A DNA stretch of 64,000 bases. It comes from Halorussus limi. Its GTDB lineage: Archaea; Halobacteriota; Halobacteria; Halobacteriales; Haladaptataceae. The DNA lies in contig NZ_CP096659.1 in the NCBI RefSeq assembly GCF_023238205.1, forward strand, positions 558,001 through 622,000, read 5' to 3'. Under the pieces are notes generated by a model. It did no database searches, was not told the origin of the DNA, and saw only the letters and a list, made by a program, of their open reading frames with translations. Below are positions 19,260-22,929 of the stretch, piece after piece. The translations under genes were made by a program, and so were the position numbers. The stretch's first letter is position 1, and every line of letters starts with the position of its first letter.

Positions 19260-20072
19260 TCAAGAACTTCCGAACGAGAGCGGTTCGGCGGCCTCCCATC
19301 GAGGAGCGAACGTCTCGCGGACGCCCGCCGCGAACTCGGGGTCCTTCATGTCTATCATGGCGAACGCCTCGCCCGGATTCAGGGGGTTGGCCACCTCGAT
19401 GCAGACCTCCACGTCGTCGATGAGGTTGAAGGTTCCCTGAAGCCCCTCCGCGGTCCGGACCTCGAACTTCGGGTGGTCCGAGAGAGTCTCGGTGTACCGC
19501 TGGCCCACGCTCGGCGGGAGCGTCTCCACGAGGTCGGGCGTCATGAGCAGCGAAATCTCGACGCCCCGGTCGAGCGCCGCTTCGAGGTGTTGAGACACGA
19601 GTTCGCCCACGTCGCCGATGTCGAACTGGGCCGACGAGTCGCCTGCGACCATCACAATCTGTTCGTCGGCGGCGTCGAGGCGTTCGACCAGCAGGTCGGT
19701 CGACTCCTCGGCCCCGACCGCGGCGGTCCAGAACCCTTCTTCGACCGGTTCGCCGGCGTCGAGTTCCTCGGTCAACTCGTCGACTATCTCCTCGTACTGG
19801 TTGGCCTGCTCTTCGAGTTCGGCGAGTTTGTCGTCCAGCAGTCGGTTCAGCGCGGTCTCAGGTTCGACCGCGACGTACTTCTTGGGGCGACTCGCGCTCT
19901 GAGAGCGCGCGAGGTTGTGGGTCTCCAGACTGCTCAGCACGTCGTAGATGCGACCCATCGGTACCTCGCTCGCGCGCGACAACTCTTTCGCGGTGGTCGG
20001 TCCGGCGTCCAACAGCGCCCGGTAGGCCCGCGCCTCGTACTCCGAGAGGCCGAGGTCTCGTAGACTCGCCAT
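19260..20072 (-). CDS. TrmB-family sugar-type transcriptional regulator
   Basis: A 270-residue regulator. The N-terminal winged helix is at residues 1-70 (LRDLGLSEYEARAYRALLDA, then KELSRASEVPMGRIYDVLSS), followed by a coiled-coil dimer helix at about 75-110 (LDDKLAELEEQANQYEEIVD). A C-terminal phospholipase-D-like ligand domain occupies 115-270. TrmB proteins sense sugars or sugar phosphates and control carbon metabolism. A TATA-like AGTTTATA lies 27 nt upstream, so the transcript is likely leaderless. No sugar transporter lies next to it; targets are probably elsewhere. Confidence 0.88.
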   Translation of the reverse strand: MASLRDLGLSEYEARAYRALLDAGPTTAKELSRASEVPMGRIYDVLSSLETHNLARSQSASRPKKYVAVEPETALNRLLDDKLAELEEQANQYEEIVDELTEELDAGEPVEEGFWTAAVGAEESTDLLVERLDAADEQIVMVAGDSSAQFDIGDVGELVSQHLEAALDRGVEISLLMTPDLVETLPPSVGQRYTETLSDHPKFEVRTAEGLQGTFNLIDDVEVCIEVANPLNPGEAFAMIDMKDPEFAAGVRETFAPRWEAAEPLSFGSS

Positions 20073-20181: not shown

Positions 20182-20394
20182 TCACTCCGCGCCGTCACCG
20201 TTCAAATCCGGGTCGAACAGGTCTTCGATGCGGCAGTCGAAGTGGTCGGCCAACTTGAACGCGAGTTCGATGGAGGGGTCGTAACGCTCGCGCTCGATGG
20301 CGTTTATCGTCTGGCGCGTCACCCCGACCGCCGCCGCGAGGTCGGCCTGACTGATGCCTTCGGCGTCCCGACGGTCTCGAATCTCGTTCTTCAT
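20182..20394 (-). CDS. Small Cro/CI (Xre)-type repressor
   Basis: A 70-residue helix-turn-helix protein: EIRDRRDAEGISQADLAAA then VGVTRQTINAIERERYDPSI and a C-terminal FKLADHFDCRIEDLFDPD. This is the compact single-domain form related to bacterial YozG/YgzD-type proteins. Its start overlaps the stop of the upstream membrane-protein gene by 4 nt (ATGA), so translation is coupled and the two work together. Two palindromes in the operon promoter are the obvious candidate binding sites, giving negative autoregulation. Confidence 0.88.
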   Translation of the reverse strand: MKNEIRDRRDAEGISQADLAAAVGVTRQTINAIERERYDPSIELAFKLADHFDCRIEDLFDPDLNGDGAE

Positions 20395-20810
20395 GAGCGA
20401 TAGCGAAGGACGCCGTAGACGACCGCGAACAGCACGTAGACGCCGATGAAGCCGTAGAGAGCGGGCCATACCGCGTCCGGGAGGGCGTAGTCGCTGACCC
20501 GCGGGAGGAGTCGGCCCACCGACGCGGTAATCGCTAATACGGGTGCGAGTATCGTGAGCGTCCACCTGCTCGCCCGCTCTTCGAGCGCCCTGTCGCGCTC
20601 GTCGAACAGCGTCACCGAGGAACCGAACAGGACGGCGAAGAACCCGAGGACGGCGGCCCAGTAGACGACTTCGCTGACCAGCGGGTAGCCCAGTACCTCC
20701 CTCAGCAGGAACGCGACGGCGACGCCGCCGAAGAAGACGCCAAACATCAGTCGACGGTACTTGCGTTGCTTCGCGAGTGGATTCCGGTCTGGTGTACGAT
20801 TTTGTGTCAT
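20391..20810 (-). CDS. Four-helix membrane protein, DUF2178-like
   Basis: A 139-residue protein with a polar N-terminus (MTQNRTPDRNPLAKQRKYRR) and four predicted transmembrane helices at about 22-38, 47-65, 84-104 and 115-133. Between helices 2 and 3 is the conserved-looking FDERDRALEERASRWT, which in DUF2178-type proteins is the signature loop. It is the first gene of a two-gene operon with an Xre-type repressor; this pairing is common in archaea and Gram-positive bacteria, where the membrane protein is thought to tune the repressor. The start at 20810 is preferred over an upstream ATG at 20885 lying inside the promoter and operator region. Confidence 0.8.
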   Translation of the reverse strand: MTQNRTPDRNPLAKQRKYRRLMFGVFFGGVAVAFLLREVLGYPLVSEVVYWAAVLGFFAVLFGSSVTLFDERDRALEERASRWTLTILAPVLAITASVGRLLPRVSDYALPDAVWPALYGFIGVYVLFAVVYGVLRYRS

Positions 20811-20832: not shown

Positions 20833-20895
20833 GTAAATCTCGCCTGTCGTAAAGCACGCTTTACAGTAAAGGAGACTTTACACACGTACTTAAAT
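20833..20895 (-). promoter_or_regulatory. Promoter with two (perhaps three) GTAAAG-N4-CTTTAC operators
   Basis: Two operators occur back to back: GTAAAGCACGCTTTAC at 20849-20864 and GTAAAGGAGACTTTAC at 20866-20881, each two perfect 6-bp arms around a 4-bp centre. A lone GTAAAT at 20833-20838 may be a decayed third half-site 16 bp further on. On the minus strand a TATA-like TTTAAGTA at 20888-20895 precedes them, so the predicted start of transcription falls between or inside the palindromes. A protein bound here would block initiation. The obvious binder is the Xre-type product of the same operon. Confidence 0.7.
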
Positions 20896-20971
20896 CTATC
20901 TCTGGTCGGGAATCGGGTCGCTAACGGCCTTTACCGTCTGAGACCGAGAGAAAAGCCAGATTGGGGGACGG

Positions 20972-22732
20972 TTACTCGGTCAGTTCGGCCACGCGCTCGC
21001 TCAGTTCCTCGGGCGTCGTCACCGGGTCCGAGCGCTCGCCGTCCACGACGACTGTGGCGCTCCCGGCGTCTACCCCCTCGCGCTCCGCGCCGGGAATCAC
21101 GACCTTCTCGTGGTCGGCGATTCGCATCGCGGCGCGGTGGAGGTCCGACCCGGCGTCGTCGGCGACTTCGATGACGAGCGGGTCCCGGCAGAGTCGCGCC
21201 GCGGCGGTGGCGTAGGACGCGACCTGCACGCCGAAGCGGTCGGCCGCGTCGGCGAACGCCGAGACGGCGCCCTCGGCGGCCTCCCGGTAGCGGTCCTCGC
21301 CGGTGAGGAGCGCGAGGTCGGTCAGCGCGTCCGCGATTTCGGCGTTGTGGTCGAGCGGGCGCATCGACCGGTCGAGCAGGCCGGGCCCCTCGCGGGGACC
21401 GTCGACGAAGGCGGTGGACTCCTCGTCGCGCAACTCGTCCAGCGCGTAGTCGGCCACCTCGCGGGCAGCAGCGAGGTACCGCTCGTCGCCCGTGACCTGC
21501 CGGGCGGTCGTGAGCGCGCCCAGCAGGTGGGCGTGGTCGGCGAGCAGGCCGGACTCGCTCTCGTCGTCCGTCTCGCCGTCGTCGAAGTGTGCGATTTCGC
21601 CGTCCTCGACCAGTTCGGTCAGGACGTAGTCGAGGGCGCGTTCGGCGTAGTTCCGGGCGCGCTCGTCGTCCGTGTAGGCGTGGTAGGTCAGGAGCGCGTC
21701 GGCCGCCATCGCGTTCCAGTCGGCGAACGCGGTCGGGTCCACCGCGGGCGCGTCGGCCGCCTCGCGGTCGCTCGGCGCGAGGCCGTAGTAGTCGGGGTCG
21801 TCGGTCTCCGCGGAGTCCGCGTCGGTGGTGTCGGCGACCGCTTCGGGTTCGCCCTCTGTCTCGCCGACGCTCGGCGAGTCGCTCTCGGGCGCGTCCGGCG
21901 AGTCGCCTGGGGCCTGACTCCCGGCGAAAGCGTCCCCGTTCCACAGGGTCGTGGTCAGGTACTCGATAGCGCGCTCGGCGGGGTCGCGGTAGTCGTCGTC
22001 GCCGGTGTAGAGGTACGCGTTGGCGAACGCCCGGACCAGCGCGGCGTTGGTCGAGAGCAGTTTCTCGTGGTGGACCTCGGTCCAGTCGCGCCCCTCAGCG
22101 AACCGGAAGAAGCCGCCGTCGTAGTCGTCGCCGAGGTACTGGCTGACCGCTTGGAGCGTCCCGAGCGCCTGCTCGCGTTCGCGCTTGAGCGCGAACTCGA
22201 CGGTCCGGGGGAGCGGGAACTTCTCGCTGTCGCCCCACCCGCCGAACTGGTCGTCGAACTTGTCGCCCAACTGGCCCGCGACGAGGCGCTCGATTTCGGG
22301 CGAGAGTTCCCCGGCGGGCGGGTCATCCCGGAGACTCCGGGGGACGCGCGCGGCGTCTTCGCCCTTGTGACTCCAGAGGTCCCGGACGCGCTGGACCACC
22401 TGTCGCATCCCGTCGGTGCCGAGGTAGGTCGCGCCCGTGAGCAGGTCGCCGTCGGGCGTGCAGAAGACGGTCGAGGGGAACCCGCCCATGTTGTACCGCT
22501 CGCGAACCCGTGGCTGGCGGTCGATGTCCACGCGAACCGGTACGAACGAGTCGTTGACGTTCGCGGCGACCATCGGGTTGCTGTACGCCTCGCGGTCCAT
22601 CTCGTGACACCACGAACACCACGTGGCCGACAGCGAGAGCAGGACCGGCGTGTCGGTCTCTCGGGCCTCCTCGAAGGCGGCCTCGCCCCATTCGCGCCAC
22701 TCGACTTTGGTCTCCTCGGCGCTTTCGTTCAT
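20972..22732 (-). CDS. Thioredoxin-domain protein of the DUF255/YyaL family
   Basis: A 586-residue cytosolic protein. Residues 1-120 form a thioredoxin-like domain (VEWREWGEAAFEEARETDTP, then the active-site-like CSWC at 39-42 and cis-Pro motif NMGGFPSTVFCTPDGD). The rest is the alpha/alpha six-barrel related to N-acylglucosamine 2-epimerase (for example ADWNAMAADALLTYHAYTDD). An acidic low-complexity segment rich in Asp, Ser and Glu lies near residues 278-330. Relatives are usually near 650-750 residues, so this one is somewhat compact. The biochemical role of the family is not established. The ATG at 22732 starts right at the family-typical N-terminus. Confidence 0.82.
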   Translation of the reverse strand: MNESAEETKVEWREWGEAAFEEARETDTPVLLSLSATWCSWCHEMDREAYSNPMVAANVNDSFVPVRVDIDRQPRVRERYNMGGFPSTVFCTPDGDLLTGATYLGTDGMRQVVQRVRDLWSHKGEDAARVPRSLRDDPPAGELSPEIERLVAGQLGDKFDDQFGGWGDSEKFPLPRTVEFALKREREQALGTLQAVSQYLGDDYDGGFFRFAEGRDWTEVHHEKLLSTNAALVRAFANAYLYTGDDDYRDPAERAIEYLTTTLWNGDAFAGSQAPGDSPDAPESDSPSVGETEGEPEAVADTTDADSAETDDPDYYGLAPSDREAADAPAVDPTAFADWNAMAADALLTYHAYTDDERARNYAERALDYVLTELVEDGEIAHFDDGETDDESESGLLADHAHLLGALTTARQVTGDERYLAAAREVADYALDELRDEESTAFVDGPREGPGLLDRSMRPLDHNAEIADALTDLALLTGEDRYREAAEGAVSAFADAADRFGVQVASYATAAARLCRDPLVIEVADDAGSDLHRAAMRIADHEKVVIPGAEREGVDAGSATVVVDGERSDPVTTPEELSERVAELTE

Positions 22733-22929
22733 TATGCGTCGAAGTTGGGAACGGGTCGGGATGGGTCTTGCTATGTCGGCGTTGTGTGACGATTGTTCCC
22801 GGCCGCTCGGCGTCCGTTTGGCGCCGCTCACCGCTCCTCGCTCGCCGCTCGCCCGCCGAGGAAACCGACGAGACCGGGAGCAGGCCGCGAACCGGAACCC
22901 CGCGATTCGAGACGAGCGAGACGCTTACA

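Follow-up and report, generated by a model that had tools for sequence, protein, structure and literature searches.

A pair of back-to-back GTAAAG-N4-CTTTAC palindromes lies just behind the TATA-like box of a two-gene operon in Halorussus limi that encodes a small membrane protein and an Xre-type regulator. The same tandem element keeps its place relative to the TATA box in relatives, is accompanied by an Xre gene in nearly every haloarchaeal genome that carries it, and recurs in front of ABC transporter and hydrolase genes. In our judgement, the palindromes are probably the binding sites of the operon's own Xre protein, a CylR2-like repressor that would regulate its operon negatively and would control the exporter and hydrolase genes of relatives through the same element.

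Tandem palindromes in the promoter of a membrane protein/Xre operon

The window (the whole 64-kb stretch of DNA that was analysed) was scanned with the palindrome pattern GTAAAGNNNNCTTTAC, allowing up to two mismatches. Two matches were returned, both of them perfect, at positions 20849-20864 (GTAAAGCACGCTTTAC) and 20866-20881 (GTAAAGGAGACTTTAC). Shuffled windows contained 0.20 such matches on average, and 2 of 100 shuffles reached two matches. The genome-wide search that had been proposed as a check revealed that these two sites are the only exact copies of GTAAAG-N4-CTTTAC in the genome (4,624,940 bases in 5 contigs); the one further palindrome with a single mismatch lies in an open reading frame of contig C5.

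Read along the minus strand, the promoter consists of the TATA-like box TTTAAGTA (20894-20887), a short gap, site 1 (20881-20866), a single T, site 2 (20864-20849) and, abutting site 2, a degenerate site 3 of the form GACAGG-N4-ATTTAC (GACAGGCGAGATTTAC, 20848-20833), with the ATG following at position 20810. In haloarchaea, the distance from the centre of the TATA box to the start site is usually 25-27 nt, and transcription is therefore predicted to start on the minus strand between the two palindromes, at 20862-20868. The original prediction had described two perfect-arm palindromes spaced 17 bp from start to start that overlap the predicted transcription start behind a TATA box, and the scan confirmed the coordinates, the arms and the spacing. 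It had also mentioned a possible degenerate third half-site; a degenerate site is indeed present there, but the term half-site says too little, as a full degenerate palindrome adjoins site 2.

Both genes of the operon are encoded on the minus strand. The first (20391-20810) specifies a membrane protein of 139 amino acids that is distantly related to DUF2178 proteins and has four predicted helices, while the second (20182-20394) specifies an Xre (HTH_3) regulator of 70 amino acids, and the two genes share 4 nt (20391-20394). The same overlap of exactly 4 nt was found in 80 of 134 operons of relatives. The expected coupling of a 70-residue Xre protein to a four-helix membrane protein fits the gene overlap and the four helices of a low-confidence structural model. 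Directly downstream of the Xre gene lies a gene for a TrmB-type regulator with a DUF7436 domain (19260-20072, minus strand; TrmB 74.9 bits, DUF7436 177.9 bits), and upstream of the operon lies a gene for a 619-amino-acid thioredoxin-domain protein (20972-22831, minus strand) that combines a Thioredox_DsbH/DUF255 part with a sugar-enzyme-like C-terminal part.

The two proteins of the operon

The HTH_3 domain of the window Xre scored 63.4 bits against a curated cut-off of 23 (E 2e-17). The protein comprises the HTH only, and its length falls inside the CylR2-like class of approximately 65-70 residues. Among proteins of solved structure, the closest in sequence are DR_2454 from Deinococcus radiodurans (PDB 9k3w, PbsX family; E 9.3e-15) and, from Enterococcus faecalis, CylR2 (E 1.8e-13, aligned over residues 3-61), and a fold search with the Xre model (pLDDT 82) again placed these two on top, with values of 0.83 for TMq and 0.7 for rmsd in the comparison with CylR2 (1utx). 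Sets of 143 membrane proteins and 134 Xre proteins were collected from those of the 164 pattern-chosen promoters described below at which an Xre match begins 381-539 bp behind the operator, as far as the reading frames could be picked by script, and the rest were dropped. Residues R27, Q28, T29, I30, N31, E34, R37 and Y38 are invariant in the 134 operon Xre proteins, and R27-Q28-T29-I30-N31, E34 and R37 constitute the putative recognition helix. Because these invariant residues are matched by an operator with nearly constant arms, we counted them in favour of Xre as the reader of the operator.

The assignment of the membrane protein to DUF2178 (Pfam PF09946, predicted membrane proteins) had to be weakened: the window protein itself is below the curated cut-off (17.2 vs. 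22.8 bits), but a weak match was obtained for each of 7 aligned sequences, namely the window protein and its relatives (best E 1.8e-4, with values of up to 0.1 accepted). The best-conserved stretch of the protein is the loop LFDERDRALE, which is invariant in all 7 of these sequences, and the motif DER[DEA] was found in 131 of the 143 operon membrane proteins. Four helices are visible in the model, which is of poor quality (pLDDT 57), and a profile search of the PDB with the membrane protein alignment returned a chance-level match only.

Distribution of the tandem operator and its target genes

With up to three mismatches, the tandem was detected in 160 of 391 haloarchaeal genomes, whereas its reversed control was detected in none; relatives of the membrane protein are present in 169 of the 391. 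When up to two mismatches were allowed, none of 218 genomes of the phylum from outside the class contained the tandem, compared with 17 of the 47 genomes that this draw included from the class. The 164 promoters and the 204 tandem sites described below were chosen by pattern (up to three mismatches), which biases their arm conservation upward, and loci chosen by protein served as the check. Among 42 loci found by the membrane protein alone, 41 have an Xre gene, and in 37 of these 41 a tandem with no more than two mismatches lies within 1 kb upstream of it, while the reversed control gave 9-13 mismatches. The original prediction had staked itself on the presence of the motif at orthologous promoters, and there it was found. 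In two of the other four loci (L017 and L018), an upstream version with 6 mismatches is kept, and in two (L041 and L044) the tandem lies behind the Xre gene, in front of another transcription unit.

Site 1 is nearly invariant in the 164 pattern-chosen promoters, both palindromes recur in the protein-chosen loci, and in 127 of the 164 there are 13 bp from the start of the TATA hexamer to site 1. Forty-one promoters have the right half-site of a third palindrome at an offset of 33 from where site 1 begins (44 when neighbouring offsets are included), compared with 0 of 164 at control offsets. A CACCGACAG-like stretch at about 20897-20904 of the window (-23 to -16 before site 1) is partly conserved in the 164 promoters and could be a BRE or the site of another regulator. 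In addition, Xre proteins of a sister group (ERGRYDPS type; L291, L292 and L293) have a single variant palindrome, GGAAAG-N4-CTTTAC, upstream, which hints at a related operator code.

We sorted 204 distinct tandem sites by the gene downstream in the direction defined by the TATA box; this set includes family-draw sites from outside the 391-genome draw and excludes six named loci (L020-L025) that are duplicates or separate records. The membrane protein and Xre pair follows 160 sites; a serine hydrolase is also in range at 5 of these, and an ABC ATPase at 3. The remaining sites face an ABC ATPase (17), a DUF3887/alpha-beta hydrolase (6), a beta-lactamase-fold serine hydrolase (6), a DERD-type membrane protein with no detected Xre (6), an Xre alone (2) or no assigned gene (7), where the Pfam names of the target genes are based on one to three examples each. 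The ABC target appears to be an exporter, judging from the ATPase and a membrane-protein-like partner; this multi-helix protein behind the ATPase had no Pfam match. The compact autoregulated membrane protein/Xre circuit that had been proposed fits in so far as the tandem precedes orthologous operons, but autoregulation alone was rejected, since approximately one-fifth of the 204 sites face other genes.

In many clusters, the ABC operon is located about 3 kb from the membrane protein/Xre pair. Thirty-two of the 204 sites were at first classed as orphans, with no Xre within 2.5 kb, and several of them have an Xre gene approximately 3-8 kb away in the same cluster, so that orphan status does not amount to regulation from afar. 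Clearer distant targets were observed in three members of the window's genus (L171, L257 and L258), in which a gene outside the Xre locus, for a DUF3887 alpha/beta hydrolase that resembles a lipoprotein, is preceded by a perfect tandem. For the genome of the window itself, the pattern scan revealed the autoregulatory site and no second strong target.

These target genes bear on the possibility that the operon is a toxin-antitoxin-like module, in which a toxic membrane protein would be paired with an Xre antitoxin that autoregulates through the tandem palindromes. A small operon of two overlapping genes with palindromes in its promoter and a regulator of the Cro/C1 type would fit such a module, and the Xre protein weakly matched an NCBIfam antitoxin model (Y4mF, 37.2 bits against a cut-off of 71.65), a match that is below the cut-off, as is that to HigA (24.2 vs. 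47.7 bits). However, a simple addiction module does not explain why the same operator is found before ABC exporters and exported hydrolases. Moreover, the membrane protein had no PADLOC match and no clear toxin family was found for it, and no exact tandem was seen in one scan of viral contigs. We consider this reading improbable.

Co-occurrence of the operator and Xre

At E<=1e-15, Xre was found in 211 of the 391 haloarchaeal genomes. Both the tandem and Xre are present in 159 genomes, the tandem only in 1, Xre only in 52 and neither in 179, so that Xre accompanies the tandem in 159 of 160 genomes as against 52 of 231 others (Fisher p ~5e-62, with relatedness ignored). Within one genus, the presence or absence of the operator and of Xre agreed in 46 of 46 genomes, 25 having both and 21 neither (hand count). 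Several of the 52 Xre genomes with no tandem have single or differently spaced palindromes, and some Xre operons have only one palindrome, which is sometimes imperfect. Weaker Xre relatives may use another operator.

The palindromes could be read by a DNA-binding protein other than the operon's Xre, given that further Xre proteins are encoded in the same genomes and that binding by the operon's Xre is deduced from conservation and co-occurrence. Against this stands the cross-table itself: only 1 of the 180 genomes that lack Xre has the tandem, and the site in this genome (G225) has three mismatches. Even single palindromes precede Xre operons, and 22 of the 23 genomes that have a single exact palindrome and no tandem carry Xre. 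Another reader is thus quite unlikely, and we infer that the operon's Xre binds the operator.

Mode of action of the palindromes

A related question is whether Xre might be an activator, or both activator and repressor, at its own promoter. In favour of this, the partly conserved sequence ahead of the TATA box (about -23 to -16) might serve as a BRE or as an activator element. The palindromes themselves, however, follow the TATA box and span the predicted start, and in archaea binding at this place normally blocks initiation. We give activation little credence, and repression of the operon by Xre is the reading that this position suggests.

The unit that Xre would recognise could in principle be the inner dyad CTTTAC-T-GTAAAG, with the outer half-sites as accessory elements, and the base between the palindromes is a T in 99% of the 164 promoters. 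This very unlikely arrangement was rejected on the basis of three observations. First, 12 Xre-operon promoters without the tandem still have a single N4 palindrome (1-2 mismatches), mostly at the same place behind a TATA-like box, whereas the inner form is 2-5 mismatches away in them. Second, the spacing between the sites is 18 bp instead of 17 bp in one locus (L093). Third, the half-sites of the inner dyad would stand just 7 bp apart. Since the tandem-less Xre promoters retain one N4 palindrome, this palindrome is taken as the unit.

That the palindromes act as RNA hairpins in the leader is hardly credible and was rejected: sites 2 and 3 are inside the predicted leader and could fold, but site 1 is mostly upstream of the predicted start, and across 12 arm pairs in the 164 promoters only 7 cells were compensatory against 89 that were broken, both counts being limited by the pattern-based choice of the set. 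As changes in the arms break pairing more often than they restore it, recognition by a protein is favoured.

Relation to known systems

The nearest functionally studied relative of the pair is CylR1/CylR2 of E. faecalis. CylR2 is a single-domain HTH repressor of 66 amino acids that regulates cytolysin, and CylR1 is a small membrane protein that is encoded beside it and required for induction, with no phosphorelay known; how membrane proteins of the CylR1 type act on repressors of the CylR2 type is, according to a review (PMC3709268), not understood. In both systems, a gene for a small membrane protein stands beside the repressor gene. On the other hand, CylR1 has three predicted helices, as opposed to four in the window protein, and the CylR pair is transcribed divergently from the toxin operon that it controls, according to the same review, whereas here the operator covers the pair's own promoter, and relatives have ABC exporters and hydrolases as targets. 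No lantibiotic-type toxin operon was seen beside the pair in the window, where its neighbours are the TrmB-type regulator and the thioredoxin-domain protein. Because this toxin operon is lacking and the membrane protein is a putative counterpart of CylR1, we do not class the pair as a member of the CylR1/CylR2 system.

The closest solved structure, DR_2454, shares 56% identity with the window Xre over 59 columns in the fold comparison, and no operator or function was found for it; its entry code (9K3W) is absent from the literature searched, as is DUF2178. Phage repressors of the Cro/C1 type and the controller proteins of restriction-modification systems are HTH dimers that bind adjacent palindromes over their own promoters. 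Members of these groups (C.AhdI, P22 c2 and 434 Cro) were among the fold matches of Xre. The present system differs from them in its membrane-protein partner and its archaeal (TATA/TBP) promoter, and neither phage genes nor methyltransferase genes were seen next to the operon. The type of regulator is a known one; no description of the operator, of its conservation across haloarchaea or of its regulon was found in the literature searched, which included few subscription papers; a query with both half-site strings and the word archaea gave no title on this operator among the matches listed.

Proposed mechanism and significance

We propose that each 16-bp palindrome would take one Xre dimer, given that the half-site centres are 10 bp, or one helical turn, apart, the usual spacing for HTH_3 dimers. 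Two dimers, or three if the weaker third site is present, would line up next to each other, beginning just behind the TATA box and extending across the predicted start, where they would block the assembly or departure of RNA polymerase and keep the membrane protein/Xre operon off. In relatives, an ABC exporter and exported hydrolases with a beta-lactamase fold or of the alpha/beta type would be controlled through the same element, whether their genes lie nearby or far away. The membrane protein may respond to a condition in the membrane or outside the cell and release Xre, perhaps through the invariant DERD loop and with no phosphorelay. By analogy with CylR1 and its requirement for induction, the membrane protein would probably relieve repression; its release of Xre from the DNA is the least certain step of the scheme, and we regard the arguments for and against this step as evenly balanced. 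The translation of the membrane protein ahead of Xre, together with the 4-nt coupling, would suit a fixed ratio of sensor to repressor.

Our guess is that the target genes serve a response to membrane-active or envelope-disturbing compounds. More tentatively, and with more doubt than confidence, we suggest that haloarchaea share a one-step transmembrane switch in which a DUF2178-like sensor frees a CylR2-like repressor from tandem operators and so induces itself, an ABC exporter and exported hydrolases. Such a switch would correspond, in archaea, to the peptide-sensing immunity circuits of bacteria, and would perhaps respond to halocins or other membrane-active compounds.

Through these results, a regulator/membrane protein pair carried by over one-third of the searched haloarchaeal genomes is assigned an operator, together with a promoter architecture and a candidate regulon. 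The recurrence of the element before exporter and hydrolase genes would mark a membrane-linked switch that is directly testable, and a conserved archaeal system with so sharply defined an operator would make the type of action that CylR1 exerts on CylR2 accessible to a simple reporter.
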